From assembly GCA_007694005.1 (NCBI GenBank), contig RECN01000056.1, positions 1-55,121 on the forward strand: 55,121 bases of DNA, given 5' to 3'. Each line of letters opens with the position of its first letter. The stretch's first letter is position 1. This document shows, one piece after another, positions 7,812 through 22,968 of this stretch. Position numbers and translations under genes: made by a program. The DNA comes from Spirochaetaceae bacterium. Lineage in GTDB: Bacteria > Spirochaetota > Spirochaetia > DSM-27196 > SKKC01. The notes under the pieces are model-generated. The model saw nothing but the letters and a program-made list of their open reading frames with translations. It ran no database searches and was not told the DNA's origin.

Positions 7812-8885
7812 CTACCGCCAGTCGTCCGGGATAATCAAGTGCGCGTAGCGTGGGAAGCAGGCAAGCAGATCCGCCGTCGCCTGTATGTCCCGTACGTGAC
7901 ACATCTGCACGGTTGAGTGCATGTATCTGGTCGGGGCGCCTATTGTAGTCGCCTTCGCCCCGAATCCAGCTCGCTGTACCGCCGACGCGTCAGTTCCACC
8001 GCCGATGTTGCGCTGGTAGGGAATACCGTGCTTCTCGCAGGTTTCCATGAGCCCGCGCAGCAGGTCGCGATCGCCAATCGTCCGGTTATCCATAAGATAG
8101 ATGCCGGTTCCACCGCCGAGCGGGCATTGCTCCTGAGTCGTTTTTGCAAAGGGGATGTCGCCGGGCAGGCTGCCGTCTATCGCGACGCAGATATCGGCCT
8201 CGATCGCGTGGGCCGCAGTCGGGACTCCGCGCACACCGACTTCTTCCTGGACGCTGCTTACCGCATAGACGTCGACGGTGTTGTCCTCGATCCTTCGAAA
8301 CGAATCGATGAGCGAGTACGTTCCGATGCGATCGTCGAAGTTGCGGCCTGTGACAATCTCGTCGTTCAGTATTTCGAAGGTCTTAGACAGACTGATGGCA
8401 TCGCCAACCTGCACGACCGCGCGAACGCGCTCGGCGGAAAGGCCGGTGTCCACGAAGAGTTCGTCGATCGGTATGACACGTTTCCTGTCTTCGGGGTCGG
8501 TCAGCCAGCCTGGTTTGGTTGGAATGACGCCCTCGAGGCGTGTCGTCTTTCCGCCGGAAGTGCCGTGTATGGTCACACGGTGACTTGGAAGCGTGCGTGC
8601 GTCGAAGCCGCCGACGGTCGCAAAAGAGATGAAGCCCCGCTCATCAATGTGTCTGACCATGAATCCGATCTCGTCAATGTGCGCCGAGTAGAGCAGGCGC
8701 AACGGCCTTTCACGGCTGGGTTTGCGCGCCTTCCTGAGCGCAATGACGTTCCCCATGCGGTCGGTCCATATCTCATCTGCGTAGGGACGCAGCTCTTCCC
8801 GCACGAGCTCCTGCGCGTCGTGTTCAAATCCCGATACTCCCGGGATGTTCGATATCTTCTTCAGTAGATCCATTCGTAATTCCAT
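7812..8885 (-). CDS. M42-family aminopeptidase (glutamyl aminopeptidase / endoglucanase-annotated type)
   Basis: A 357-residue cytoplasmic metallo-aminopeptidase of family M42. The two-metal site is recognisable: a first His in SAHIDEIGFM, the bridging Asp in GRNFDDRIG, the catalytic Glu pair in SVQEEVGVRG, an Asp in CVAIDGSLPGD, and a late His in YMHSTVQMCH. M42 enzymes form large self-compartmentalising complexes that trim short peptides. A strong GGGAGG Shine-Dalgarno precedes the ATG at 8885. It is divergent from the aldo/keto reductase (29 bases between starts) and convergent with the mutarotase. It adds to the set of intracellular peptidases in this block. Some family members are annotated as endoglucanases, which is historical. 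Confidence 0.93.
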   Translation of the reverse strand: MELRMDLLKKISNIPGVSGFEHDAQELVREELRPYADEIWTDRMGNVIALRKARKPSRERPLRLLYSAHIDEIGFMVRHIDERGFISFATVGGFDARTLPSHRVTIHGTSGGKTTRLEGVIPTKPGWLTDPEDRKRVIPIDELFVDTGLSAERVRAVVQVGDAISLSKTFEILNDEIVTGRNFDDRIGTYSLIDSFRRIEDNTVDVYAVSSVQEEVGVRGVPTAAHAIEADICVAIDGSLPGDIPFAKTTQEQCPLGGGTGIYLMDNRTIGDRDLLRGLMETCEKHGIPYQRNIGGGTDASAVQRAGFGAKATTIGAPTRYMHSTVQMCHVRDIQATADLLACFPRYAHLIIPDDWR

Positions 8886-8914
8886 TTTTCCTCCCTCACG
8901 AGTAGTCTGTTTCT

Positions 8915-9883
8915 ATGATTCAGTCTGATGTTCGAAGCTGTGGCTCGCGTGGTCTGACCCTCACGCGGCTTGGTCTTGGTGGAGCAGCCCTCGGCCGGGG
9001 ACCCGCATCCCCCGAAGCCGATGAAGCCGGTGCGAAGACGCTTGAAGCCGCGTACCGCCTCGGAATCCGGCATGTCGACACCTCGCCGGCCTACGGCGAA
9101 AGCGAGCGTCGACTGGGAATCGCGCTTCGTCGAAACACGTTCCCGGATCTCACGATCTCTACGAAGGTCGGTACGCATCCGGATCGCCGATTCAGCTACG
9201 TCGCCGACGACATCAGATGGTCGCTCGAGAACAGCCTCAAGACGCTTGGTCGATCGTACGTGGATATCGCGCTCATCCACGATCCGCCGTCGCTTGAGCC
9301 GGCGCTCGCTTCCGGAGACGGCTTCGATGCGCTCCACCGCCTGCGCGAGGAGGGCTTGTGCCGAAACGTTGGACTCGGCGTTCACAGCCACGAGTTTCAC
9401 TACCGCGCGATCGATGCCGGTGCGGTCGACATCATTCTGCCCTACGGCGACTTCAATATCGTCCGGCGTACGGGTACCCGGCTCATGCAGTACGCACAGG
9501 ACCACGGCGTCGGCGTTCTGCTCGGGTCGCCGATGATGCACGGTCTGCTCGCGGCCGACGAAGAACCGGCAAAGGTGCTCGAACGGCGTCCGAACCTTCT
9601 GAACTGGTATACCGAGCGTGATATTGCGGTCGCTCAGGAGTGGTACGGTTGGTGCCGGGACCGCGAGGTCTCCATGCGACACCTCAATATGCAGTTTGTC
9701 CTGGGCTCCGGTCTCGCAGATTGTGTGCTGACCGGTGCTCTGGACGCCACGGAGATCGATACCAACGTTCACGAAGCGGTGACCCCCGTGCCGCAGGAGA
9801 TCTGGTCCGCGGCCATAGCGCGGATCGCAGATCTTGACGCTGCATCCGGGGAGGCGACACCGGAAGACGGAGATTTCGCCTGA
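8915..9883 (+). CDS. Aldo/keto reductase, D-threo-aldose/L-fucose dehydrogenase-like
   Basis: A 322-residue NAD(P)-dependent aldo/keto reductase. The AKR tetrad is visible: Asp and Tyr in VDTSPAYGESE, Lys in STKVGTHPD and His in LIHDPP. The barrel begins with TRLGLGGAALG. The short AKR form with this N-terminus includes D-threo-aldose 1-dehydrogenases that oxidise L-fucose to L-fuconolactone. With the lactonase at 26941-27813 and fucosidase at 25493-26944, that role fits but is inference. No Shine-Dalgarno is evident before the ATG. It is divergent from the M42 gene and convergent with the aldehyde dehydrogenase, 16 bases apart. I found no TTGTYGACAA site upstream, so it may be outside the GntR regulon. 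Confidence 0.88.
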   Translation: MIQSDVRSCGSRGLTLTRLGLGGAALGRGPASPEADEAGAKTLEAAYRLGIRHVDTSPAYGESERRLGIALRRNTFPDLTISTKVGTHPDRRFSYVADDIRWSLENSLKTLGRSYVDIALIHDPPSLEPALASGDGFDALHRLREEGLCRNVGLGVHSHEFHYRAIDAGAVDIILPYGDFNIVRRTGTRLMQYAQDHGVGVLLGSPMMHGLLAADEEPAKVLERRPNLLNWYTERDIAVAQEWYGWCRDREVSMRHLNMQFVLGSGLADCVLTGALDATEIDTNVHEAVTPVPQEIWSAAIARIADLDAASGEATPEDGDFA

Positions 9884-9899
9884 AAGCGCAGTACGTCGA

Positions 9900-11426
9900 C
9901 TACTCGAGTCGCGCGTCAATCTCACGCTCACCGAGGTCGAGCCATATGGTTTTCGTTTCCGTGTACTGGTCGAACGCGTGCAGACCGTTATCGCGTCCTC
10001 CGAATCCGGAGAGCTTATAGCCGCCGAACGGAGTCGTAATGTCGCCTTCGCAGTAGGAGTTCACCGTAACCGTTCCCGCCTGTATTCTGCGCGCTGCACG
10101 CAGAGCTTTTTTGCCGTGCGCACAGAACACGGTCGCGTGCAGACCGTATACGGTATCGTTCGCGAGGGTGATCGCCTCATCATCACTGCCGACGCTGTGT
10201 ATCGTGAGCACCGGTCCGAAGATTTCGTCTTTCGCGATCGTCATGTCGGGCGTGACCTTGTCGAAGACCGTGGGGGCGATAAAAAGCCCCGATCCGATGT
10301 CGAGCGCTTCGCCTCCGGCTATGACCTCGGCTCCTTCCTTGCGACCGATTTCGATGTAGCTCATGACATCGTCGAAGTGTTTCCGTGAGACCATGGACCC
10401 GAGTCCGTTCTGCGGGTCAAGCGGATCTCCGATCTTCCAGTCGCGAAGCTTTTCGTGAATGCGGCGGCAGAGTTCGTCCTTGTGTTTCCGGTGAACGATC
10501 AGGCGGGAGTTCGACGAGCAGTTCTCGCCCATGTTCCAGAACATCGCCTTGACGACCTGTTCGGCAACGTAATCCAGCTCTTCCGCGTCTTCGAGCACAA
10601 CCGCCGGGTTTTTCCCGCCGAGCTCAAGCGTCACCTTCTTCAGGTTACTGCCGGCGGAATACTCCAGCACGCGCCGACCGATCGCGGTCGAACCGGTGAA
10701 CGAAATTGCGCCGATGTCCGGGTGCGTGCCGAGCGCTTCGCCGACCGTGGAACCGGGTCCGGTGATCACGTTAAACACCCCGGGGGGGACGCCGGCCTCA
10801 CCGGCAAGTTCTGCCACGCGCAGGGCGCTCATGCTCGTCTCGCTCGCCGGCTTGACTATGACGCTGTTCCCTGCGGCCAGCGCTGGTCCGGCCTTCCAAC
10901 CGAGCATCTGCAGGGGGAAGTTCCACGGGAGGACACAGGCGACAACTCCGATCGGCTCACGGACAATAAGTCCCATGGCGTCGTCGGTAGAGGGTGAGAT
11001 CTGGTCGTACAGTTTGTCGCCCGCCTCAGCGTACCAGGCCAGACACTCGAGTGTTTCCGGGAAGTCTATCGTTGCGATTTCGCGTATCGGTTTTCCGCTG
11101 TCGAGGCTTTCGAGAACCTGCAGCTCGTAGCGGTTCCGCTTCATGAGTTTGACAAGCTTGATAAGAATCTCTTTTCGCTCGCCCGGATGCATGCGGGACC
11201 AGACTCCGCTCTCGAACGCCTGTCGGGCCTTCTTGACTGCGTAGTCGACGTCGGTCTTATCGCAGGAAGCAATCTCGGCGATCACTTCTCCGGTTGCAGG
11301 ATTGGTTGTCGGGTAGGTCTTTCCCGACTTCGCCGAGGTGAACTTCCCGTTGATGTACGAGTTCGTCATTGGCACGATGCCGTCGGCGATTGCATGGTAC
11401 TCGTCGCGAGATAATAGATCATGCAT
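9900..11426 (-). CDS. NAD(P)-dependent aldehyde dehydrogenase
   Basis: A 508-residue aldehyde dehydrogenase superfamily enzyme. The catalytic Cys is in NMGENCSSNSRL (about residue 305), the general-base Glu in VTLELGGKNPA, the cofactor-fold motif in SFTGSTAIGRR, and the PWNFPL and EIFGPVL motifs are present. The GGAG-preceded ATG at 11426 overlaps the upstream lyase gene by eight bases, so I prefer it to an upstream start. It is the second gene of a two-gene unit with the DHDPS-family protein. This pairing is familiar where the lyase yields an aldehyde (lactaldehyde or alpha-ketoglutarate semialdehyde) that the dehydrogenase oxidises to an acid. The actual substrate cannot be read from the sequence; annotation as betaine- or gamma-aminobutyraldehyde dehydrogenase would be overprecise. 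Confidence 0.93.
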   Translation of the reverse strand: MHDLLSRDEYHAIADGIVPMTNSYINGKFTSAKSGKTYPTTNPATGEVIAEIASCDKTDVDYAVKKARQAFESGVWSRMHPGERKEILIKLVKLMKRNRYELQVLESLDSGKPIREIATIDFPETLECLAWYAEAGDKLYDQISPSTDDAMGLIVREPIGVVACVLPWNFPLQMLGWKAGPALAAGNSVIVKPASETSMSALRVAELAGEAGVPPGVFNVITGPGSTVGEALGTHPDIGAISFTGSTAIGRRVLEYSAGSNLKKVTLELGGKNPAVVLEDAEELDYVAEQVVKAMFWNMGENCSSNSRLIVHRKHKDELCRRIHEKLRDWKIGDPLDPQNGLGSMVSRKHFDDVMSYIEIGRKEGAEVIAGGEALDIGSGLFIAPTVFDKVTPDMTIAKDEIFGPVLTIHSVGSDDEAITLANDTVYGLHATVFCAHGKKALRAARRIQAGTVTVNSYCEGDITTPFGGYKLSGFGGRDNGLHAFDQYTETKTIWLDLGEREIDARLE

Positions 11427-12360
11427 AGCGTTTTTCTCCCTGTTCGCCGGCACTGTGCTCGGAGGCGATTTGACGTATGGAGGTTCGCGCGGTCGCTATG
11501 GCGTCGCGCAAGCTTCGTTTCAGTTCTTTTTTCATGGGCCGTAGTGGTAGTCGTACCGTTTCGCCGGCCGGCAGGCCGTCGAGATCGCAGCCGTACTTTA
11601 CACACTGAACGAACTTTCCACCGCGTTCGAGCACCGTCATGACCGGCAGCATTGCCTTCATGATTCTTCGACCGGTGGCGAAGTCGTTGCGCACGACACA
11701 CGCTTCGAACAGCGCAATGGCCTCCTCGGCGAAGAAGTTTCCGGCGGCACATACCCAGCTCTGCGCGCCCCACGCGAAAAATTCGAGAGCCAGATCGTCT
11801 GCGCCGCAGCTGAGCTGCAGATGAGGAAACTCGCGAGCGAGCATGTGTATGCGTCCGATGTCTCCCGCACTTTCCTTGATCGCGACGAAGCTGCTGCTGC
11901 GGCCGACGCGTTCCAGGAACTCGTGGCCCATCTCTGCGCCCGATCGACCGGGATAGTTGTAAAGCATGATCGGCAGACCGGTGGCTCTGTCAACTTTCAA
12001 GGCGTGAGCCGCAAGTTCTTTCTGATCGGGAATCGAGTAAGGGGGGACGGCAAGCAGAAGTGCTGACGCACCGTGTTCGCGTGCAGAGACGGCGAACTCG
12101 CAGACCTGTTCGGTCCGGATGTTGTTGATCCCCGCGATCCAGGGTACGCGCCCGCCGATAAGCTCGTGCGCGAAGGCGAACTGCCGCGTCTGTTCATCGG
12201 GCGTCAGCGCGTAGTTTTCTCCGGTGGTGCCCCCGATGACAAGCCCGTGAACGCCGGCGGCGATCAGGTGCTCAAGCATTATTCCGTACGATTTCTCATC
12301 CACGGAATAATCAGGGTGGAACGGTGTAATTACCGGAACATAGATTCCGTGGAACTTCAT
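11419..12360 (-). CDS. Dihydrodipicolinate synthase (DapA)-family lyase/aldolase
   Basis: A 313-residue class I, Schiff-base enzyme of the DHDPS/N-acetylneuraminate lyase family. The signature GGTTGENYALTPDEQ, the catalytic Tyr in YNYPGRSG and the Schiff-base Lys162 in AIKESAGD are all present. Members cleave or dehydrate 2-keto acids: 2-keto-3-deoxy sugar acid aldolases, 5-keto-4-deoxyglucarate dehydratase, and hydroxyproline-pathway deaminase. Here it is translationally coupled to an aldehyde dehydrogenase, so an aldehyde or semialdehyde product is likely. One candidate route is 2-keto-3-deoxy-L-fuconate to pyruvate and lactaldehyde; another is the alpha-ketoglutarate semialdehyde pathway. 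A biosynthetic dapA is unlikely in this setting. Its promoter carries a TTGTCGACAG site, which suggests control by the GntR regulator at 16223. Confidence 0.9.
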   Translation of the reverse strand: MKFHGIYVPVITPFHPDYSVDEKSYGIMLEHLIAAGVHGLVIGGTTGENYALTPDEQTRQFAFAHELIGGRVPWIAGINNIRTEQVCEFAVSAREHGASALLLAVPPYSIPDQKELAAHALKVDRATGLPIMLYNYPGRSGAEMGHEFLERVGRSSSFVAIKESAGDIGRIHMLAREFPHLQLSCGADDLALEFFAWGAQSWVCAAGNFFAEEAIALFEACVVRNDFATGRRIMKAMLPVMTVLERGGKFVQCVKYGCDLDGLPAGETVRLPLRPMKKELKRSLRDAIATARTSIRQIASEHSAGEQGEKRYA

Positions 12361-12403
12361 GAGAAACCCTCAGTAATAATATTAATGATAACAATAAATA
12401 ACA

Positions 12404-12422
12404 TTGTCGACAGAATAGTATA
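12404..12422 (-). promoter_or_regulatory. Promoter and putative GntR operator for the DHDPS-family/ALDH operon
   Basis: In the 100-base gap upstream of the DHDPS-family gene, a minus-strand TATACT -10 box (12417-12422) is followed by TTGTCGACAG on the plus strand (12404-12413), covering the expected transcription start. The palindrome differs by one base from TTGTCGACAA at 14990-14999. FadR-subfamily GntR proteins bind TNGTNNACNA-like palindromes, so repression by the nearby GntR protein is a reasonable inference. No convincing -35 was seen. Confidence 0.55.
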
Positions 12423-12460
12423 ATTCGGAACGGCGCGCAACTGATTGGTGGCCCGCACGC

Positions 12461-13606
12461 TCAACACCATGAGCCGAGCTCGGTTGTCTCTTCGAGTATG
12501 GCCTGAAGCGTATCCGGATTCAGACGCGAAAGCGCCTCGTCCACGAAAAGACCGTCTTTCCGCCAGAGCTTCCCGTCGAGATAGATCTCTCCACCGCTGT
12601 ACGGGGGGAGGTGACTCTGCACAATGTCCCAGTGAACACTCGACAGGCGACCGCTGCTGTCCCTCCCGCCAGGGGTAAAGTGGAGACTGCCGGCCATTTT
12701 CTCATCGTACAAGGTATCGATCATGTGATGCCGCAGGTAGGGGTTCACACCAATCGCGAACTCGCCGATGTGCCGTGCGCCTTCGTCGGTATCGAGAATT
12801 GCTTCCATGTTCTCCCGTTCATCCGCTTCTACTTCGATGATCTTCCCGTCCTTGAAGGTCAGTGCGATATCGCGAAAGACCAGTCCCTGGTGACTCGAGG
12901 GCACGTTGTAGGCGATTCTCCCGTTTGCAGACTCGCGCACGATGGTCATTGCGGTCTCTCCGTCCGGAATGTTCCAGGTGCCGGCGCTGATATCGGTGGT
13001 CAGACCGGCAATTGAGAACGAAAGATCCGTTCCGGGGGCCACGATGCGCACGTCGTTCGCGTTGTCTATTGCTTCTTTCAGGGGTTCCATTTCACGGTGG
13101 AGCACCGTGAAGTTCATGGTTGAAAGCTTGAAAAAGAGGTCGGTGAACGCATCGGTACTCATTCCACCCTGTTGCGCGAGCGACTTGGAGGGGTAGCGTA
13201 TGATAGTCGTATTGGCGCCGTCTTTACGCCCTTCCTTACCCATGCGAATGTGCAGGTGGCCGAAGTACCGCAGGTTTTCAGGTGGAACGTCAGCGAGTTC
13301 ACTCCAGTTTTCCTGGCCACGGATCTGAAGGACGTGGTCCATCTCGCGACGAATGGCAGCTTTATGCGTAAACCAGAGGTCCATCTGTTCCTTCGTCGCC
13401 TGCCTGAGCCAGTTCGCGCGCACACGGATCGACTCGTGAATCATGTACGGAAGCGCACCGACATCGTTGAGTGCGTCGATTACCTCAATAATAAGTTCCT
13501 CGCACTCGTCGAGCGCGTCGATCATTACTTTTGCGCCGGGTTTAACCTTGAGCGCGTGTCGCACAATGATCCGTGCGGTTGCCGCCATTCTTGGGTCGCG
13601 TAGCAT
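12461..13606 (-). CDS. M29-family metallo-aminopeptidase (AmpS/thermophilic aminopeptidase type)
   Basis: A 381-residue protein of the M29 aminopeptidase family. It has the domain order and conserved acidic/His segments of that family: TWNIPDGETAMTIVRESANG, GEFAIGVNPYL, TLYDEKMAGSLHF and SSVHWDIV, which supply metal ligands. M29 enzymes remove N-terminal residues from short peptides in the cytoplasm. A GGAG Shine-Dalgarno lies nine bases before the ATG at 13606. It lies 14 bases downstream of the M24B homologue, clearly in one operon, and upstream of the DHDPS/ALDH pair on the same strand. Together with the M42 and M24B genes and the peptide-type transporter it points to peptide or peptide-conjugate use. 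Confidence 0.85.
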   Translation of the reverse strand: MLRDPRMAATARIIVRHALKVKPGAKVMIDALDECEELIIEVIDALNDVGALPYMIHESIRVRANWLRQATKEQMDLWFTHKAAIRREMDHVLQIRGQENWSELADVPPENLRYFGHLHIRMGKEGRKDGANTTIIRYPSKSLAQQGGMSTDAFTDLFFKLSTMNFTVLHREMEPLKEAIDNANDVRIVAPGTDLSFSIAGLTTDISAGTWNIPDGETAMTIVRESANGRIAYNVPSSHQGLVFRDIALTFKDGKIIEVEADERENMEAILDTDEGARHIGEFAIGVNPYLRHHMIDTLYDEKMAGSLHFTPGGRDSSGRLSSVHWDIVQSHLPPYSGGEIYLDGKLWRKDGLFVDEALSRLNPDTLQAILEETTELGSWC

Positions 13607-13620
13607 AGTTTTTGTCTCCT

Positions 13621-14979
13621 TCAGCAGAGTGGGATGAGCGGGAAGGCGTCGGCAGGAAACGCCTGCAACAGGCCATCTTCTTTCATGAGGGCTTCAATCT
13701 CGTCGAGTTCCAGCGGAGCGTCTTCAGTGAAGTTCTCAACGCCATTTTCGGTCACGACAATCGTATCCTCGACACGGAGGTACATCTTCTCTTCGGGAAG
13801 TCGTATCTGTGGATCGAGCGCGAGTACAACCCCCGGCACGAGAGGTTTTCCGCGGTAGTGGCCGTCGTCGTGGCAGGCGAGCCCGACCGGATGCGACATG
13901 TGGTAGGGGAAGTCAAGCGACCACTGCGCAGCCCTCTCAAAGCTCGGCCGCTTCCATTTCGTCGCCGAGGCAATCTTTTTCATTCGTGCAGCGACTGTCA
14001 GGCGGATTTCTTCGTCGGTCAGCCCCGGTTTGATCTCTTCGAGGTAGGCCTTATGAAAGTCCACCATGAACCCGTAGAGCTGTCTCTGTTCGTCGGTATA
14101 GCTTCCGTTCACGGGCCACATCCGGGTTATGTCGCTCGCATAGTATCGGTAATCCGGAGCACAGTCGCCGAGCATGAGCTCGCCGTTTTTCAGTACAGAG
14201 CTGTTCGCTGCGTAGTGGCCGTGCCAGGCGTTCGCGCCCGAGGCCATGATCGCGTTGTACGCCCGTCCCCGGGCACCGTGACTCATGTACACGTAGTCGA
14301 GTACCGCCGCGAGCTGATACTCGTAGACGCCTTCACGCGTTGACTTAATGGCTTCGATCAGAGCGCGTGCCGTCAGTTTGCCTGAGCGTCGCAGGAGGTC
14401 GATTTCATGAGCGTCTTTGACGACTCGCATGTCGTTCAGAATGGGCGCGAGGTCGACAATGTCGGCGATCGGGTAGCGTTTCCTGAGCAGCTCGATGAAG
14501 TGCGCAAAACGGTCCAGTGTTCCATCCCAGGGGTCGGAGAAGCGTCCAATTCTCCCGGCGATGTGTGTATCCCAGCTCGTCATCGAAGCAGCGCCTTCGC
14601 GGAATGGCGTGTAGATGCGTGCAACACGCTCGAGTCGAGATGCAAGTTTCTCAACACCGAGCACTTCGTCAACGCCGCTCGCCGCAATTACCTTGTCTGC
14701 CGTCTCCACCGAAGGGATTTCGCCGCTGTTGTCGCGCTCTGTTTCAGACTGATGCGGCAGGAACAGCGTGGTTGTATTATTGCGTGTATCGAAGAGCAGG
14801 TAAGACTGCGGTGACTCAACGCCGCACAGGTAGTAGAAATCGTTTGCCTGACGGAACAGCTTCAGACCGTTCTCTTCCGGTGCACCGGCGACGACAGCGA
14901 CAGAGTTCGCGTCCATCTGCTCGAGTACCCGACGGCGTCGGTCCCGGTACCCGTCGGCAGCAAGTATTGGATTGTACAT
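13621..14979 (-). CDS. M24B-family peptidase (Xaa-Pro aminopeptidase-like), copy 1
   Basis: A 452-residue protein with a creatinase-type N-domain and a pita-bread C-domain. Metal ligands equivalent to E. coli PepP are visible: Asp272 (LGDCAP), Asp283 (ASDITR), His363 (SHPVGL) and Glu404 (RVEDTI). The remaining ligand, Glu in PepP (EPG), is Asp389 (ALDPQI). The same change occurs in the paralogue at 22965. The substrate may therefore differ from ordinary Xaa-Pro peptides. I chose the ATG at 14979, not 14985, because AAGGAG directly abuts the latter. The gene is first in an operon with the M29 peptidase and divergent from an enolase-superfamily gene. A perfect palindromic operator overlaps its leader at 14990-14999. 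Confidence 0.85.
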   Translation of the reverse strand: MYNPILAADGYRDRRRRVLEQMDANSVAVVAGAPEENGLKLFRQANDFYYLCGVESPQSYLLFDTRNNTTTLFLPHQSETERDNSGEIPSVETADKVIAASGVDEVLGVEKLASRLERVARIYTPFREGAASMTSWDTHIAGRIGRFSDPWDGTLDRFAHFIELLRKRYPIADIVDLAPILNDMRVVKDAHEIDLLRRSGKLTARALIEAIKSTREGVYEYQLAAVLDYVYMSHGARGRAYNAIMASGANAWHGHYAANSSVLKNGELMLGDCAPDYRYYASDITRMWPVNGSYTDEQRQLYGFMVDFHKAYLEEIKPGLTDEEIRLTVAARMKKIASATKWKRPSFERAAQWSLDFPYHMSHPVGLACHDDGHYRGKPLVPGVVLALDPQIRLPEEKMYLRVEDTIVVTENGVENFTEDAPLELDEIEALMKEDGLLQAFPADAFPLIPLC

Positions 14980-14989
14980 TAACATCTCC

Positions 14990-14999
14990 TTGTCGACAA
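14990..14999. promoter_or_regulatory. Perfect palindrome TTGTCGACAA, putative GntR operator
   Basis: A ten-base perfect palindrome lies in the 63-base divergent region between the M24B copy 1 and enolase-superfamily copy 1 genes, adjacent to the M24B Shine-Dalgarno. One-mismatch versions are found at 12404-12413 and 17163-17172. It fits the TNGTNNACNA pattern typical of FadR-subfamily GntR regulators, one of which is encoded just downstream at 16223. A second possible half-site, TTGTAC, lies at 15011-15016. Confidence 0.6.
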
Positions 15000-15006
15000 T
15001 GTATCA

Positions 15007-15035
15007 TTGTTTGTACGATGATGTAATGCTAATAT
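15007..15035 (+). promoter_or_regulatory. Promoter of enolase-superfamily gene 1, possibly leaderless
   Basis: TTGTTT (15007-15012) and TAATAT (15030-15035) are separated by 17 bases, a reasonable sigma-70-type pair. The predicted start of transcription, about seven bases after the -10, coincides with the ATG at 15043. No Shine-Dalgarno precedes that ATG, so a leaderless message is suggested. Confidence 0.45.
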
Positions 15036-15042
15036 ACGCGAC

Positions 15043-16218
15043 ATGAAAATAACACAGGTCGAGACTATTCCCGTCAGCCTTCCGGTTGGTAACTTTTCCG
15101 ATGGCTTCAGCAAGGTCGGTGCAGTTCCACCGCCGCCCCGTTTCGACGCAGGCAGGTCTCGACTGCGCCGTTCGGATCCCTCGCAGCAGATCGTCCTGTC
15201 GAACGTCATAGTGAAAATCCATACCGACGAAGGCTTTGTTGGGGTCGGCGAGGCTGCGTGTGACGCCACCGAGCCGGTTCGCAACGTAAAGAACATGATC
15301 GATAGACACATGGCCCCGCAGCTGGTCGGTGAGAATCCGCTGGACTGGGAGTTTCTGATCGATCGTGTATCGTGGGACGCGCCGCGGGGGGCAACACGGC
15401 ACGCTACCGCAGGGATCGATCTGGCGCTTCACGACCTCGTCGGGAAAGTACTTGGCGTTCCCGTGTACGCGCTCATAGGCGGACTGCGGCGCGACAGGGT
15501 TCTCGCCTCCATCGAGGTACCAAAGAATACGCCACAGCTGCAGGTCGAGCACTGTGCCGAGTACTACGAACAGGGGGTCCGCGGATTCAAGCTGAAGGTC
15601 GGTTCGAACGCGTATCTTGACGCGGAGTCGGTTATCGCGGTGAGCGAACGATTCGGACCAGAGATCAGTCTGCGGGCAGACGCCAACTGCGGCTACACGG
15701 TGAAAGACGCCAGAACCTTCTGTCGCATAGTCGAGGCCAGCGGTGTGAAGCTTGAGGTTCTCGAGCAGCCGGTGGCCAAGCTTGATCTCGATGGGCTGCG
15801 AGCGGTCCGTGACGCGACTGATATACCGATTGAAGCAGATGAAAGCGCATTCAGCCTCGGCATGGTCTATAGACTGCTTGCCGCCGAGGCAGTCGATCTC
15901 ATTAATACAAAGTGTGCAAAAGCCTTAGGGATCAAGGGCGTTCGCGAGTGGGCGACCGTTGCGCGAGCTGCCGGTACTGGTATTGTCGTCGGTACCGAGT
16001 GGGGCTGCGCGGGCATCGTCGCGGCAAAGCTGCACTTAGGGGCCGCGATCGTGAATGCGGACCCCGTGGTCGAGTTTACTGAGATCATGATTCACGAAAT
16101 GCTTCATAAGGAGCCTATTGTCCTGGAAGACGGATATATTCGTGTGCCGGTACTACCGGGTCTCGGGATTGAGCTCGACGAGGAGAAGGTAGAGCGCGTG
16201 CGATTGCGCGACGCGTAA
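15043..16218 (+). CDS. Enolase-superfamily enzyme, muconate-lactonizing (MLE) subgroup, copy 1
   Basis: A 391-residue enolase-superfamily enzyme. Catalytic and metal residues are Lys183-x-Lys185 (FKLKVG), Asp213 (RADANCGY), Glu241 (LEQPV), Asp266 (EADES) and Lys290 (INTKCAK). A lysine at the sixth strand, with no Asp-Arg-Gly-Gly or His-Asp dyad, places it in the MLE subgroup rather than the sugar-acid dehydratase (mandelate racemase) subgroup. MLE members include dipeptide epimerases and hydroxyproline/betaine epimerases or dehydratases. The C-terminal DxD motif of Ala-Glu epimerases is not evident, so the substrate is unknown. It is divergent from M24B copy 1 and followed after four bases by the GntR gene. 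The paralogue at 24302 is also next to an M24B gene. Confidence 0.88.
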   Translation: MKITQVETIPVSLPVGNFSDGFSKVGAVPPPPRFDAGRSRLRRSDPSQQIVLSNVIVKIHTDEGFVGVGEAACDATEPVRNVKNMIDRHMAPQLVGENPLDWEFLIDRVSWDAPRGATRHATAGIDLALHDLVGKVLGVPVYALIGGLRRDRVLASIEVPKNTPQLQVEHCAEYYEQGVRGFKLKVGSNAYLDAESVIAVSERFGPEISLRADANCGYTVKDARTFCRIVEASGVKLEVLEQPVAKLDLDGLRAVRDATDIPIEADESAFSLGMVYRLLAAEAVDLINTKCAKALGIKGVREWATVARAAGTGIVVGTEWGCAGIVAAKLHLGAAIVNADPVVEFTEIMIHEMLHKEPIVLEDGYIRVPVLPGLGIELDEEKVERVRLRDA

Positions 16219-16222
16219 ATAC

Positions 16223-17098
16223 ATGAATAATATTAACCGAATGAGTATTGCCGCGTACATCAGCCAGGACCTCAGGCATAGAATTCGCACTGGTGCAACC
16301 CTTCCGTCGCAACTGTCTCTGACCGATCTCTCCCGACACTACGACGTGAGTCTCACACCGGTTCGCGAGGCGATACAGACACTCATCGACGAAGGGTACC
16401 TGCGGAAGCACACGAGTCGACGTATCACCGTTAATCCCGAAATGGTCGGAATTGCTGGGGCCGATGAGCGTACCGGTCTGCCACAGAAACCACCCAACTG
16501 GGAGTCGGTTCTGCTTGACGAGGTCATGCACGCGACCTTAAGTCTGATGCCGATCTATCTCAGGGAGGCCGATCTCGCTGCAAAACTCGGGGTCGGGCGG
16601 TCGATCATACGCGGCAGTTTCAGCCGCTTCGCCGGGGCGGGTCTGCTCGACCACGTGCCACGCAAGGGATGGCGAGTCCACCCCGTACGCGTTGACGACG
16701 TAGAATCGTATCTGCAGGTTCGCGAAGCGCTGGAGCTTACGGCGCTGGAGGCGGCGAAACCGAACATCGAGCGCGCGGAAGTGCTCGGCCTGCTCAAAGG
16801 CGACAATCACGCCCTCGACGATACTCCGCATCGATACATCGTTTCCAAGTCCGGCAATCAGTACATCGAGCGCTTCTTCGACCAGTACGTTGCGCGCTAT
16901 TACACACGACTGCTTCACTACGCCGCACCCGAGGCTCACGTCGCCGATGAGATGGCCGCCGAGCACGATGAGATTCTCAGGGCGATACTCGACCGCGACT
17001 GGTCGAAAGCGAGGGACGTCCTGTCCCGCCACATTCGCGGGCAACGATCAGTGCTTGAGACTGTGCTGATTGCGAGTCGCCGCGAAAAACAACCGTAA
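16223..17098 (+). CDS. GntR-family regulator with two tandem winged-helix domains and an FCD domain
   Basis: A 291-residue protein. Residues 1-72 form a GntR winged helix (LTDLSRHYDVSLTPVREAIQTL, then a wing). Residues 93-156 form a second one in register (LREADLAAKLGVGRSIIRGSFSRF, then LLDHVPRKGWRVHPV). Residues 157-285 resemble a short FCD ligand domain with His residues in the usual metal-site segments (DDTPHRYI, EHDEILRAI, LSRHIRG). Usual FCD-GntR proteins are about 220-240 residues with a single winged helix, so this is a domain duplication. It lies four bases after the enolase gene, with no Shine-Dalgarno, so translation is probably coupled. A second in-frame ATG is at 16241. Likely targets are the three TTGTYGACAA sites nearby. 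Confidence 0.85.
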   Translation: MNNINRMSIAAYISQDLRHRIRTGATLPSQLSLTDLSRHYDVSLTPVREAIQTLIDEGYLRKHTSRRITVNPEMVGIAGADERTGLPQKPPNWESVLLDEVMHATLSLMPIYLREADLAAKLGVGRSIIRGSFSRFAGAGLLDHVPRKGWRVHPVRVDDVESYLQVREALELTALEAAKPNIERAEVLGLLKGDNHALDDTPHRYIVSKSGNQYIERFFDQYVARYYTRLLHYAAPEAHVADEMAAEHDEILRAILDRDWSKARDVLSRHIRGQRSVLETVLIASRREKQP

Positions 17099-17162
17099 TA
17101 CCGATCTTCGTGAGCTAATGTGAGAAACAGGCTAAAACTATTTTCGCCTTCAATGGTTTATA

Positions 17163-17195
17163 TTGTTGACAAAAAAGTATTGTGTACCATAAGGT
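17163..17195 (+). promoter_or_regulatory. Promoter and overlapping GntR operator of the peptide-type transporter operon
   Basis: TTGTTGACAA (17163-17172) is a one-mismatch copy of the palindrome at 14990. It contains a consensus TTGACA -35 (17166-17171), with TAAGGT (17190-17195) 18 bases downstream as the likely -10. Repressor binding there would block polymerase directly. The 137-base gap otherwise holds only AT-rich sequence and the GAGGAGG Shine-Dalgarno of the binding-protein gene. Confidence 0.6.
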
Positions 17196-17235
17196 TTGAG
17201 TGTCATAGGTCTACGATATCCTGAGGAGGTTCACT

Positions 17236-18855
17236 ATGAACACGAAACGTAAACTATTGATGCTGTCGATCGTGGCAGTATTGATTATTGCTGGGGCGTC
17301 TCAAGCGCTTGCCGCTGGACGATCCGAGCCGGCCGCAGCCGCCGGTCCGGTCACGATGAACTATCACATACCGGGGGATCCGACCATCATTGATCCGTCG
17401 GCGAACTGGATCGGTGAGGTCGGCGCCAACTTCTTTACGCCTCTCATCGGGTTCGACGCGAATGCGAACGAGATCTACCCGCGGGGTGCAACCTCCTGGA
17501 CTGTATCCGACGACGGAACGGTCTGGACTTTTGATATTCGCCGCGACTGGCTGTGGTCTGACGGTACTCCGCTCACCGCTGCCGACTACGAGTACGGATT
17601 CCAGGCCATCGTTGATCCTGAGACCGCTTCTCCAACTGCATTCCGCCTCTCCGTTATAGAAAACGCCCAGGCGGTGACAAACGGGAGTATGCCCGTCGAT
17701 CAGCTTGGTGTCAGAGCCCTCGACGATCACACGCTTCAGATTACGCTTGAGGCGCCCGCGTCATGGTTCCTCGTATCGTTGAGTTCCATAGGCTACGCAC
17801 TCCCCCGCTGGGTTCGTGAAGAGTACGGCACGGAGTGGACGAATCCCGAAACCATTGTTGTCAATGGACCATATACCCTGGCAAGCCGCCGGGTGGACGA
17901 CGTATACGTCCTTGAGAAGAACCCGAACTACTACGACGCTGACAACGTTCAGATCGAACGCATCAACCTGATTGTTGTACCGCAGCAGAGTACCGCTATG
18001 GCGATGTACGAGAATGGCGAGCTCGATACGGTTATGGTTCCGATCGAGGATCTCGACCGCGTGCAACGCGATCCTGTTCTCAGTCAGGAGTTCACGAGCT
18101 TTCCGCGTTTGATCTCACAGTTCTACTGGTTCAACGTCGGGCGCGCACCGTTTGACGACGTGCTCGTACGCAGAGCCTTTGCCGCGGCAGTCGACAAGGA
18201 CACGCTGGTAAGTCGGATCACGCGTGGTGGCGAAGTAGCAACTGACACCATAGCTCCCCCGGGTGTGGTCGGGTACGTGGACCCCTCGTTAGGTGTCGGA
18301 ATCTCGTACGATCCTGCACAGGCCCGAGCATGGCTTGCTGAAGCCGGATATCCTGGTGGACAGGGTTTTCCTGCGGTTACCGTCGGATTCAACTTCAACG
18401 AGTTCAACGCGAGTGTCGCTCAGGCCCTGCAGTCAATGTGGCAGACAAACCTTGGTGTTGAAGTGACGCTGAGTGGTGTTGAAGGTGGTGCGTACGGATC
18501 ACTGACCTCCGGTGGTGAGTTCAACATCTACCGCTGGGGTTGGGGCATGGCATATCCCGACGCAAACTACATACACGAAGGCATTTTTCATTCCAAGGTC
18601 ATGTCGGAAACCGAGCGGACACATCGCTATCATTCAGATGAGTTCGATCGCCTGATAGACGAGGCCGCGACCGCTACCGATCAGGCTCAGCGGGAAGCGC
18701 TCTATCTGCAGGCCGAAAGGCTTCTCGTAGAAGAAGATATGGGAATCATTCCGATGTTCTTCCCTGCTGACAACCGTGTAACGAAACCGTACCTGAACCG
18801 GGTACAGGGCCCGTTGATGGTGCAGGAGTTCTGGAACTGGACTATCACACAGTAA
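17236..18855 (+). CDS. Peptide/oligosaccharide ABC transporter substrate-binding protein (SBP family 5, OppA/DppA-like)
   Basis: A 539-residue periplasmic binding protein of SBP family 5. A signal peptide (KRKLLMLSIVAVLIIAGASQALA) is followed by AGRSEPAAAAG with no lipobox Cys. The family core is clear: ATSWTVSDDGTVWTFDIRRD, then WSDGTPLTAADYEYGF. GAGGAGG precedes the ATG at 17236. It is first in the dpp-like operon and is followed by a stem-loop. Family 5 proteins bind di- and oligopeptides, but related transporters in Thermotoga take oligosaccharides. The co-transcribed fucosidase and peptidase homologue make a glycopeptide or modified peptide possible. The ligand is inference; the family is certain. 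Confidence 0.93.
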   Translation: MNTKRKLLMLSIVAVLIIAGASQALAAGRSEPAAAAGPVTMNYHIPGDPTIIDPSANWIGEVGANFFTPLIGFDANANEIYPRGATSWTVSDDGTVWTFDIRRDWLWSDGTPLTAADYEYGFQAIVDPETASPTAFRLSVIENAQAVTNGSMPVDQLGVRALDDHTLQITLEAPASWFLVSLSSIGYALPRWVREEYGTEWTNPETIVVNGPYTLASRRVDDVYVLEKNPNYYDADNVQIERINLIVVPQQSTAMAMYENGELDTVMVPIEDLDRVQRDPVLSQEFTSFPRLISQFYWFNVGRAPFDDVLVRRAFAAAVDKDTLVSRITRGGEVATDTIAPPGVVGYVDPSLGVGISYDPAQARAWLAEAGYPGGQGFPAVTVGFNFNEFNASVAQALQSMWQTNLGVEVTLSGVEGGAYGSLTSGGEFNIYRWGWGMAYPDANYIHEGIFHSKVMSETERTHRYHSDEFDRLIDEAATATDQAQREALYLQAERLLVEEDMGIIPMFFPADNRVTKPYLNRVQGPLMVQEFWNWTITQ

Positions 18856-18873
18856 GGTAAGCGACTGACCTGC

Positions 18874-18910
18874 AGCCCGTACCGTCGTCAGACGGTACGG
18901 GCTCTATTTT
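18874..18910 (+). promoter_or_regulatory. Strong stem-loop with T-rich tail between binding-protein and permease genes
   Basis: AGCCCGTACCGTC and GACGGTACGGGCT form a thirteen-pair perfect stem around a GTCA loop, followed by CTATTTT (18904-18910). This looks like a partial intrinsic terminator inside the operon, which would allow high binding-protein and lower permease expression. It ends just upstream of the permease Shine-Dalgarno. Confidence 0.7.
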
Positions 18911-18926
18911 GCCACTGGGAGGTTGT

Positions 18927-19847
18927 ATGCTCAGCTTTATTTTTCGAAGGATCCTGTGGCTCATTCCTGTACTTCTGGTGATTTCGATGATCACCTTTGC
19001 GCTGATGCTGTCTGTCCCAGGTAACCCATTCGAGGGTACCGGAGAGAGACCGCTACCGCCAGAGACAGTTGCCCGTTTGCGGGCGCATTACGGTCTCGAT
19101 GATTCGATCCCCGTGCAGTACCTCCGATATATGCAGAATCTGCTCCGTGGCGATCTGGGTCCCTCGTATGCAACACGCCGTTCAGTGAACGACATGGTCG
19201 CAGCGGGCCTGCCGATATCAGCGACCCTCGGAATGCTTGGACTCGTCGTGGCACTTTCCATCGGTATCCCGCTGGGGGTGGCCTCTGCCCTGAATCAGAA
19301 CCGAGCTATCGATCACTTCGCGATGTTTTTTGCTATGGCCGGGGTATCCGTTCCTGCGATGACCTCAGCACCTTTGTTTATCTGGATTTTTTCCATCAAC
19401 CTCGGCTGGCTCCCGGTAGCCCGGTGGGGGACCTGGCAGCAGGCGGTCATGCCGGCCATCATCCTCGGTATCGGACCCGCTGCAGTGCTTGCCCGGCTGA
19501 CCCGCGCGAGTATGCTTCAGGTTATCCGCGAGGACTACATCCGGACGGCACGCGCAAAAGGGGTGCCGGAGCGACGCATAACCATCCAACACGCGCTTAA
19601 GAATGCGCTCATTCCCGTTATCACGGTTCTCGGTCCGCTTTTTGCCAGCATGGTAACGGGAGCCGTCGTCGTCGAACGGATTTTTGCCATACCGGGCATG
19701 GGCGGGTACTTCGTCGGTGGCGTTTCGTCTCGGGATTACCCTGTCATAATGGGCATGGTACTTGTGTATACATTTTTTCTTGTGCTTTCTAATCTCGCTG
19801 TCGACCTCGCCTACGCGTGGGTAGATCCGCGTATCAGGCTTGAGTAA
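18927..19847 (+). CDS. Peptide-type ABC transporter permease, DppB/OppB family
   Basis: A 306-residue inner-membrane permease. It has the typical N-terminus (FIFRRILWLIPVLLVISMITFALM), six membrane segments and the DppB-type ATPase-contact loop (YIRTARAKGVPERRITIQHALKNALIPVI). The ATG at 18927 is chosen because GGGAGG lies directly upstream; an earlier ATG-like start at 18909 lies within the T-tail of the stem-loop. It forms the channel with the DppC-like partner 17 bases downstream. Confidence 0.94.
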   Translation: MLSFIFRRILWLIPVLLVISMITFALMLSVPGNPFEGTGERPLPPETVARLRAHYGLDDSIPVQYLRYMQNLLRGDLGPSYATRRSVNDMVAAGLPISATLGMLGLVVALSIGIPLGVASALNQNRAIDHFAMFFAMAGVSVPAMTSAPLFIWIFSINLGWLPVARWGTWQQAVMPAIILGIGPAAVLARLTRASMLQVIREDYIRTARAKGVPERRITIQHALKNALIPVITVLGPLFASMVTGAVVVERIFAIPGMGGYFVGGVSSRDYPVIMGMVLVYTFFLVLSNLAVDLAYAWVDPRIRLE

Positions 19848-19864
19848 GGGTAAAGGGACGCCTC

Positions 19865-20803
19865 ATGGCAAAAATAGTGAAACCGGCAGACAGTCTCTGG
19901 AAAGACGCCTTTCGAAGACTTCTCAAGAACAAGGTGGCCGTGGCAGGCGGAGTGATCATAATCGTGCTCACCTTCATTGCGGTTTTCGCGCCACTGATTG
20001 CGCCATACCATTTCGCCGAAGCGAATTTCGAAGAGACATTCTCTGCCCCGGGCGGGAGATACCTGCTCGGTACCGATTTTCTCGGGCGTGATATGCTCAG
20101 TCGCCTGCTGTACGGGACGAGGATTTCGCTGACGGTCGGAACCCTTGGTGCCATATTCGCGTTTACGATAGGCGTGCTGTACGGAACCCTTTCCGGCTAC
20201 GTTGGCGGTAAAGTCGACAACGTGATGATGCGTATCGTCGACGTTCTATACGCCTTTCCGTCGCTGTTGTTCATCATCCTGCTCATGGTCGTCTTCAAAA
20301 CGAGTTTCAGCGCAGGGGTCGAGATCGTTCGGGGCCCGATTGTGATGGCCATAGCCACCCTCGATCGATTCCTCGGTGGAATGCTCTTTATACTGATCGG
20401 TATCAGCCTGACGTCGTGGATAGGGATTGCACGGCTGTCGCGCGGTATGGCGCTGTCTCTGCGAGAGATGGAGTTCGTACAGGCGGCAAAAGCCCTTGGT
20501 GCAGGACATTTCCGGATTATCGTCCGCTACCTGGCACCGAATCTGGTGGGCCCCCTTATCGTGAATATTACCTTAAGCATTCCCGGCTTTATCGCGACCG
20601 AGGCCTTCCTGAGTTTCATCGGCCTCGGTGTCGACCCTCCGACACCGAGCTGGGGCGCGATGATACAGGACGGTGTCCGCGCCATGCGCGGGCATCCTCA
20701 CCTCGCGATATATCCTGGCATCGCACTGGCGCTTGCGATGCTGTCGTTCGCCTTCCTCGGTGACGGCTTGAGAGATGCGCTTGATCCGAGGCTTAAGCAA
20801 TGA
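19865..20803 (+). CDS. Peptide-type ABC transporter permease, DppC/OppC family
   Basis: A 312-residue permease with the OppC-type N-terminal cytoplasmic tail ([21 protein letters not shown]), the [18 protein letters not shown] motif and the conserved loop ([23 protein letters not shown]). It partners DppB. It ends in an ATGA overlap with the fused ATPase gene, so translation is probably coupled. An insertion around residues 140-165, between the third and fourth membrane segments ([22 protein letters not shown] region), is a little longer than in E. coli DppC. Confidence 0.94.
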
Positions 20804-22854
20804 GCGAACGAGGAGAGTCCGTGCAGAAACCGATTCTGGAAGTTGAAGATCTCAAGACCAGCTTTTTCACCGATGACGGAGAAGTAAAGTCCGTTGACGG
20901 TGTTGACTTCGTGATACATCCGAACGAAACGCTCGGAATGGTCGGAGAGTCCGGTTGCGGTAAGAGTGTTACCTCCCTGTCGATCATGCGGCTCATCGAC
21001 TCACCCGGGAAGATCGTCGGTGGAAGCATACGATTCCGCGGCGAAGAGCTTCTCACGAAATCGCCTGCGGAAATGCGCAAGATACGGGGCAATGAGATCT
21101 CGATGATCTTCCAGGAACCGATGACCTCGCTCAACCCTGTGCACACGGTTGGCGCACAGATCGTCGAGGCCCTCGTTCTTCACCGTAAGCTGACGCGTCA
21201 CGAAGCCATGCTCAAGGCTCTCGATATGTTGAAGCTTGTCGGTATCCCGGCACCCGACCAACGGATCAATGAGTACCCGCACCAGTTGTCCGGCGGTATG
21301 CGACAGCGTGTCATGATAGCCATGGCGCTGTCCTGTGATCCCAAGCTTCTGATTGCTGACGAACCGACGACGGCCCTTGACGTAACGATACAGGCGCAGA
21401 TTCTCGATCTCATGAAGAAGCTCAAGAATACGATCGGCTCTTCAGTCATGCTTATTACACACGACCTTGGCGTAATAGCGGAGCTTGCGGACAACGTCGT
21501 AGTTCTGTACGCCGGAGAGGTTGTTGAGTACGCTGACGTAAAAACGATATTTGAGCATCCGAAACATCCCTATACGATTGCACTCCTTGAATCGATTCCC
21601 CGACTTACCGACGATAGGGGCCGAAAGCTTTTCTCCATTTCCGGCAATATTCCTGACCCGCTTCACAGACCCGGTGGGTGTCCCTTTCATACACGATGCC
21701 GTTTTGCGCAGGATGTATGTGCCTCGGAGCACCCTCCGCTCACCGTGCTCGAAGACGGGAGTAAGGTCCGCTGCTGGATGCATGTTGAGAGCCACGCGCA
21801 TCACTTCGCTCACGTCGATCGTACCTCACCACGGATTGTCGTTGAGGAGCAGCGGCTCGAGCCCGGGAGTGATGACGTAGACGCACAGACTGCGCAGCCC
21901 CTGCTACAGATCCGGAAGCTCGTGAAGCACTTCCCGATTCGCGGGGGCTTTATGCGGAAAGTCACCGGTCACGTCCGCGCGGTTGACAATGTCAGCTTCG
22001 ACATCATGCAAGGTGAGACCTTTGGACTGGTCGGCGAGTCCGGCTGCGGCAAGAGCACCACGGGACGTCTTGCGCTGAGGTTGCTGGAGCCGACTTCCGG
22101 AGAGGTCGAGTTTGATGGAAGGCCGATCGTCGGTCTGAACACGAAAGAGATGCGGCGCGTCAGGCGTGAGATGCAGATCATTTTTCAGGATCCCTTCGCG
22201 TCGCTGAATCCACGAATGACCGTTGGCGACACGATCGCCGATGCCTTTGCGATTCACCACCTGAACCGCAACGGAAGCACGAAGGACAAGGTCGCCGAAC
22301 TCATGAAGCTGGTAGGACTCGAGCCGGATTACATGCGCCGGTATCCACACCAGTTTTCCGGAGGTCAGCGCCAGCGGATCGGTGTCGCGCGCGCGATCGC
22401 GCTTGATCCCAGGCTCATAATCTGCGACGAACCGGTTTCCGCGCTCGATGTGTCGATACAGGCACAGATTATTAACCTGCTCGAAGATCTTCAGAAGAGA
22501 CTGAAGCTATCGTACCTGTTTATTGCGCACGACTTGAGCGTCGTAAAACACATTTCCGACCGCGTGGCAGTGATGTACCTCGGCAAGATTGTCGAACTCG
22601 CCGAAACCGAAGAACTGTTCAGCAACCCGCTCCATCCCTATACCGAAGGACTGCTTGCTGCGGTTCCCGTTCCCGATACGAGCGCGCAGCGCAACCGCAT
22701 CATTATATCCGGCGACGTTCCAAGCCCGAGTAATCCTCCTTCGGGTTGCCGGTTTCATACAAGATGTCCGATCGCCCAGGATATCTGTAAGCGGGTGGAA
22801 CCGGTGCTCGAAGAGAAGTCTCCTGGACACATCGCGGCGTGCCATTTCCGATAG
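20800..22854 (+). CDS. Fused ABC transporter ATPase (DppD-DppF type, two nucleotide-binding domains)
   Basis: A 684-residue cytoplasmic protein with two complete ATPase domains. The first has [18 protein letters not shown] and [11 protein letters not shown]. The second has [18 protein letters not shown] and [10 protein letters not shown]. Each domain ends with the oligopeptide-transporter C-terminal motif ([14 protein letters not shown] and [14 protein letters not shown]). In most peptide importers these are separate DppD and DppF chains; fused forms such as GsiA and YejF are known. The ATG at 20800 overlaps the dppC-like stop. A GTG at 20821, preceded by AGGAGAG, would remove seven residues and is a realistic alternative start. 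It energises the transporter encoded just upstream. Confidence 0.94.
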
Positions 22855-22920
22855 GCATGGCCAGGACCGCCATACCAGACATCGTTCTCACCTTCGCGGC
22901 AAAGCCGCACTGGAGACACA

Positions 22921-22968
22921 ATGAAAAACATAATCGTCAGCGCTACGACTCTGGGAGCGCGCCCATGA
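22921..22968 (+). CDS. Fifteen-codon leader ORF translationally coupled to M24B copy 2
   Basis: In the 110-base gap after the ATPase gene, an ATG at 22921 has a GGAG Shine-Dalgarno five bases upstream. It opens a 15-codon frame (MKNIIVSATTLGARP) whose TGA overlaps the downstream ATG at 22965 as ATGA. It may be a coupling leader peptide or the remnant of a lost gene. It resembles nothing I can name. The short GCGGC-AAA-GCCGC hairpin at 22896-22908 lies just before it. Confidence 0.35.
   Translation: MKNIIVSATTLGARP

Follow-up and report, generated by a model that had tools for sequence, protein, structure and literature searches.

Positions 1 to 55,121 of contig RECN01000056.1 from an uncultured Spirochaetaceae bacterium (assembly GCA_007694005.1), a stretch referred to here as the window, include a gene for a GntR-type regulator with an FCD effector domain, located among genes predicted for oligopeptide import, peptidases, enolase-superfamily enzymes, a DHDPS-family lyase and an aldehyde dehydrogenase (Table 1). 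Three copies of a 10-bp palindrome lie in gene-start spacers of this cluster. A GntR/FCD regulon is the best-supported reading of the locus, and a real local one as far as computation shows, because the site, the GntR gene and the target genes co-occur across genomes, and rearranged clusters still have the site in their gene-start spacers.

Predicted operator sites and their copies in the genome

The three spacers that hold the sites are found at 12361-12460 (before the DHDPS-family gene, minus strand), 14986-15042 (between the M24 and enolase genes) and 17099-17235 (before the solute-binding-protein gene). An earlier note on this DNA had placed a TTGTYGACAA palindrome in each of these regions; direct inspection of the sequence bore out the three positions and their location in gene-start spacers, and the palindrome is exact at the second site, whereas the first, strictly counted, is a 9/10 palindrome and the third has a central mismatch that the pattern permits. 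In agreement with the earlier note, operator 3 sits on the -35-like box (TTGACA, assigned by consensus) of the promoter for the transporter operon. For the enolase-GntR promoter, a -35-like TTAACA and a -10-like TATCAT 17 nt apart enclose operator 2, which in the other direction runs into the ribosome-binding site of the M24 gene (TTGTCGACAAGGAG; GGAG). A TATACT -10-like box of the DHDPS-family gene lies just upstream of operator 1. The core of operator 1 is identical in the sister genome (locus L036), with one-mismatch copies before the DHDPS-family gene in L040, L042 and L043; the position of operator 2 is kept in L036, L037, L038, L040, L041 and L088, and that of operator 3 in L036, L039 and L042 (the last with one mismatch).

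Table 1. Location of the predicted operators, the regulator with its domains, and the associated genes (positions in the window unless a locus handle is given).
Feature	Position	Strand	Remarks
Operator 1	12404..12413	-	TTGTCGACAG; CTGTCGACAA when read towards DHDPS; 43 bp before DHDPS start
Operator 2	14990..14999		TTGTCGACAA, perfect palindrome; M24/enolase divergent gap
Operator 3	17163..17172	+	TTGTTGACAA
GntR-type regulator	16223..17098	+	291 aa; two tandem GntR winged helix-turn-helix (wHTH) domains and FCD; Pfam PF00392 and PF07729, AlphaFold model, structure matches
wHTH 1	16244..16438	+	Residues 8-72; helices 9-23, 33-40, 44-56, wing 60-70 (model)
wHTH 2	16499..16687	+	Residues 93-155; helices 93-105, 115-122, 126-138, wing 142-152 (model)
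FCD effector domain	16691..17086	+	Six helices; Pfam, model, structure match, residue conservation
Enolase-superfamily enzyme 1 (MR/MLE)	15043..16218	+	First gene of the operon ending with GntR; KxK, DAN, DES and NTKCAK residues
M24B Xaa-Pro-type peptidase	13621..14985	-	Orthologues only in the GntR-bearing genomes
M29-type metallopeptidase	12461..13606	-	Downstream of M24
DHDPS-family Schiff-base lyase	11419..12360	-	YNYP and IKE motifs present
Aldehyde dehydrogenase	9900..11453	-	Operon with DHDPS
Conserved 356-aa protein	8861..9931	-	DHDPS-aldehyde dehydrogenase operon; 64% in L036, 38% in L038
M42 aminopeptidase	7812..8885	-	Last gene of DHDPS operon; own operator in L038 and L043
Oligopeptide-type ABC transporter	17236..22854	+	Binding protein (SBP_bac_5, OppA-like), two permeases, 684-aa ATPase; orthologues in L036, L039, L042
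Second M24 peptidase and second MR/MLE enzyme	22839..25480	+	Overlapping genes of transporter operon, overlaps 4-16 bp
alpha-L-fucosidase	25493-26944		Intact in window
GntR operon of distant relatives	L046:7331-14595 (G378); L110:7261-14390 (G578)		Gene content in text

In the genome (3,902,615 bases, 204 contigs), 26 matches to TTGTYGACAR or its complement were counted. The earlier note had named many equally good sites at chance positions elsewhere as evidence against a regulon, and 23 were indeed found outside the window trio, yet 18 of these lie inside open reading frames (ORFs) of at least 200 codons, as checked in 4-kb stretches around each. A nineteenth appears coding from manual frame reading (the KH-protein gene before rimM), and three lie in short, doubtful ORFs. 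The only clear unlinked intergenic copy (L051:2045; G000 contig C40:3444) is found 8 bp before a gene for a metallo-beta-lactamase-fold protein, and its flanks are not AT-rich.

Conservation of site, regulator and target genes

Comparison between genomes provides the best evidence for the regulon. Of 46 genomes in the order, nine have an orthologue of the GntR protein, counting the window's own (others 51-92% identical). The orthologue of the M24 peptidase is restricted to exactly the same nine genomes and is absent where GntR is absent. An orthologue of the DHDPS-family gene was found in six of the nine by genome search and in a seventh (G016) at a contig edge by tblastn; contigs end early in the remaining two, which limits this count. 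Within the same contig limits, the genomes that lack GntR also lack this orthologue. The gene order of the clusters varies between families.

In an independent test, all 512 palindromes of the form NNNN(Y/R)(R/Y)NNNN were scored in 16 spacers of seven rearranged clusters, with the window and its sister genome left out. The same motif came out best: TTGTYRACAA ranked first of 512, being present within one mismatch in 10 of the 16 spacers and exact in five, while palindromes of the same composition average 0.30 spacers within one mismatch and the runners-up reach three. The site precedes M24 in L037, L038, L040, L041 and L088, the binding-protein gene in L039 and L042, the DHDPS-family gene in L040, L042 and L043, and M42 in L038 and L043; the M42 sites cover TTGACA, with TACAAT or TAGAAT at 17 nt. 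In G037, a perfect TTGTCGACAA (L043:1822) also immediately precedes a second operon for an oligopeptide-type transporter, about 11 kb from the GntR gene of that genome.

Two distant GntR orthologues of the same class (G378, 46% identical; G578, 44%) share their operon with genes for a sodium:dicarboxylate-type (SDF) symporter and an iron-sulfur serine-dehydratase-like protein, as well as for an aldehyde:ferredoxin oxidoreductase and a DHDPS-family lyase. None of the window's peptidases and enolase-type genes was found in the fetched G378 and G578 stretches. Both operons are headed by TTGTTGACA(A/G), over the promoter -35, with a TACAAT box 17 nt after the TTGACA of the operator. With the window peptidases missing and the site still at the GntR operon, it is the regulator rather than the peptidases that the site accompanies, and the two distant relatives thus give the strongest link between site and regulator. 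Judged from family names, the gene sets of the window and of G378/G578 would share a logic, i.e. importer, dehydratase/epimerase, DHDPS-family lyase and aldehyde-oxidising enzyme. The operon of the distant relatives possibly represents an amino-acid fermentation route.

The regulator and its predicted mode of action

The FCD assignment of the earlier note is confirmed by Pfam (PF07729, 44.5 bits against a cut-off of 24.3, profile positions 4-124 of 125) and by structure matches, but a second winged-helix domain had been missed: PF00392 (GntR wHTH) matches two stretches of the protein (57.8 bits, curated cut-off 27). In the AlphaFold model (predicted local distance difference test, 81.8; predicted template modelling score, 0.59), residues 88-287 match the FCD regulators TM0439 (3sxy; Z 18.8, root mean square deviation 2.8, alignment over residues 90-284) and PmiR (Z 17.8), and residues 1-74 on their own resemble the DNA-binding domains of GntR proteins (3by6, Z 10.4; PdhR fragment 5kvr, Z 10.1; AraR domain with operator, 5d4r, Z 10.1). 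Among the PDB matches listed none spans both wHTHs, an absence that is not proof of novelty, and no tandem or two-wHTH (or HTH) GntR protein was found in the open-access literature. The usual layout is a single N-terminal wHTH per chain, which is not strictly defining; the regulator carries two, in 11 of 11 orthologues, and is hence filed as a variant of the FCD (FadR/VanR) subfamily and not as a standard member. Close relatives, 11 members in all, turned up solely in Spirochaetota genomes of the window's class. The tandem wHTH layout is the unusual part; the regulon itself is ordinary in kind. An origin of the two wHTHs by internal duplication found no support, as blastp gave no meaningful match between them.

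The best-conserved domain is wHTH 2 (mean identity in the 11 orthologues 0.74; wHTH 1, 0.63; linker, 0.35). It is the likelier reader of the operator core, because it keeps both recognition-helix arginines (R126 and R130), whereas wHTH 1, which keeps S43, T45, P46 and R48, has L/I/V at the position of FadR Arg45. An arginine at one wHTH position goes with TGGT in FadR-subfamily regulators (PMC4494728); neither wHTH has it, in agreement with TTGT in the operator. Of the FCD metal ligands (D-x3-H, H, H), H203, H248 and H270 are invariant and the aspartate is present in 10 of 11 orthologues.

By fold and operator the regulator is an FCD-type GntR protein that departs from solved members in its second complete wHTH. 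As in the FadR/VanR regulators TM0439, PmiR and Atu1419/VanR, residues 88-287 fold as a wHTH followed by a six-helix VanR-type FCD with the metal ligands kept; unlike these, the window regulator has an extra complete N-terminal GntR wHTH and a shortened FCD start. The operator TTGTYRACAA follows the FadR-subfamily consensus of TKGT/ACMA boxes with GT and AC 2-3 nt apart (PMC4494728), its spacing of 2 nt (TTGT-N2-ACAA) being that of GntR, HypR and UxuR (PMC4494728). Atu1419, described as the first tetrameric GntR (PMC7797058), likewise uses 10-bp palindromes, several per regulon, over promoter elements of divergent and neighbouring operons; its four wHTHs come from four chains, whereas a dimer of the window regulator alone would carry four. 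BusR (PMC8517857) also places four GntR-type reading heads on an extended, bipartite operator, but does so as a tetramer, has RCK_C as its effector domain and uses a 22-bp ruler, in contrast to the FCD and the tandem wHTHs per chain found here.

From the computed sites, their conservation, the co-occurrence of genes and the domain layout we infer, at a probability of about 0.8, that the GntR/FCD regulator uses all three sites as its operators and most likely represses an inducible pathway of peptide or amino-acid use. The regulator would act on the promoters for oligopeptide import, the peptidases, the enolase-type enzymes, the DHDPS-family lyase and the aldehyde dehydrogenase. At each site the palindrome is predicted to overlap a core element (transporter -35; enolase-GntR spacer and M24 ribosome-binding site; DHDPS +1 region), where bound protein would block RNA polymerase or the start of translation; repression is preferred because all inferred site positions are of this kind. 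The regulator would be released once its FCD pocket takes up a pathway metabolite, probably a carboxylate that binds at the metal site, and operator 2 would provide autoregulation because the GntR gene lies in the enolase operon.

The same protein might instead activate at these sites, or activate at some promoters and repress at others; the operator positions do range from -35 to +1, and FadR acts both ways depending on the promoter, but every inferred position overlaps core promoter or ribosome-binding elements and none lies upstream of -35, which makes this unlikely. A slightly smaller chance is left for the palindromes being operators of another transcription factor, global or neighbouring, with the GntR gene as bystander: an AraC-type regulator (5060-7321) is encoded close to the cluster, yet GntR is the only regulator common to every cluster examined, GntR and site stay together in G378 and G578 though most surrounding genes differ, the site sequence fits the FadR-subfamily consensus, and the genomic copies elsewhere lie nearly all in coding ORFs, so that a global regulator is unlikely. 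It is very improbable that the motif is a mere sigma-70 -35 box with a chance palindromic partner. TTGACA is contained in TTGTTGACAA, and operator 3, the sites before M42 in L038 and L043, and those of G378 and G578 lie exactly over a -35; this does not hold, however, for operators 1 and 2 or for the majority of M24 and DHDPS sites, which are placed at +1, within the spacer or on the ribosome-binding site; sites with a CG centre lack TTGACA, both arms are conserved, and no other palindrome comes close in the 512-palindrome test. A chance cluster of a common 10-mer, finally, can be given hardly any weight: despite the 26 places in 3.9 Mb, genome density predicts 0.0017 matches for the three spacers (294 bases together) and the actual number is three (Poisson P about 9e-10, uncorrected for the fact that the motif was chosen post hoc), and independent conservation of the motif across families contradicts chance.

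Several points weigh against the preferred reading of the sites as operators of a GntR repressor. The 10-mer alone is not specific, given about 23 more genomic copies, mostly in coding DNA, and extra context must therefore add specificity. The M24/MLE1 gap of L042 and several spacers before GntR itself are without a good site, promoters were called by eye or consensus scan only, and the flanking half-sites described below overlap the -10-like TACAAT, so that their enrichment may be promoter sequence.

Flanking ACAA boxes, in the same direction as the far arm, were seen 12 times where 3.8 were expected, and nine times against 2.6 without orthologous duplicates (p = 0.0005). Between the core and the first base of a box there are 8-15 nt, and the box middle is about 11-18 nt away from the site centre, whereas for the weaker additional boxes beside the palindromes of many FadR-subfamily regulons a distance of 7-12 nt from the centre is published (PMC4494728). 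The information content of the flanks (24.3 versus 12.3 in shuffles) was set aside as proof; it is inflated by orthologous M24 promoters and ribosome-binding sites. One dimer with two diverged wHTHs per chain could present four reading heads, an inner pair (wHTH 2, its two arginines reading GT/AC as in FadR-type proteins) probably on TTGTYRACAA, and an outer pair (wHTH 1) probably touching the AT-rich, ACAA-like half-sites; this would define a dual-wHTH FCD group with a compound operator and without tetramerisation. Since the ACAA boxes are in part the -10-like TACAAT, the model is tentative and its chances are below even. Within one of the largest families of bacterial regulators, the layout offers a natural test of how an added reading head affects the length and the specificity of the operator.

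Genes and extent of the unit

The earlier note had tied the peptidases, enolase-type enzymes, lyase/dehydrogenase pair, transporter and fucosidase into one regulatory unit. This is supported by sites kept through rearrangement, except for the fucosidase, a putative member that is linked to the unit through adjacency, lies behind a conserved hairpin and was absent from the other clusters examined, save a partial copy in the sister genome. The unit is also larger than had been listed, since M42, which has its own site in two relatives, and a protein of unassigned family lie in the DHDPS operon (order: DHDPS, aldehyde dehydrogenase, unassigned protein, M42); the unassigned protein gave no match in Pfam, NCBIfam or PDB. 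The transporter operon runs from the solute-binding protein through permeases, ATPase, second M24, second enolase-type gene and fucosidase to an amidohydrolase, with gaps of at most 53 bp.

A regulator, operator and target set are thereby defined for a pathway without assigned substrate in uncultured Spirochaetota, and knowing the inducer would give a lead to that substrate. No substrate is named because the enolase-type enzymes have a mixed set of closest PDB relatives (dipeptide epimerase, muconate and chloromuconate cycloisomerases, galactonate dehydratase) and the DHDPS-family gene scores below every curated NCBIfam cut-off. An L-hydroxyproline (HypR-type) regulon, which would have hydroxyproline epimerase and oxidase genes next to a DHDPS-type deaminase and an aldehyde dehydrogenase, was considered as a lead and is not supported: the DHDPS and aldehyde dehydrogenase genes are present, but neither an epimerase nor an oxidase turned up among the scanned genes.

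The AraC-type regulator that adjoins the cluster (minus strand) comprises 753 aa with a long N-terminal part. The second M24 gene (22839-24305) and the fucosidase gene are partly deleted in the sister genome G001 (L036:16612-18728). Between the binding-protein and first permease genes lies a strong hairpin (18874-18903; 13-bp stem, -27.3 kcal/mol) that is kept in L036, L039 and L042; it probably sets a higher level of the binding protein, and the distal genes of the operon may be expressed at a lower level because this conserved hairpin follows the binding-protein gene.

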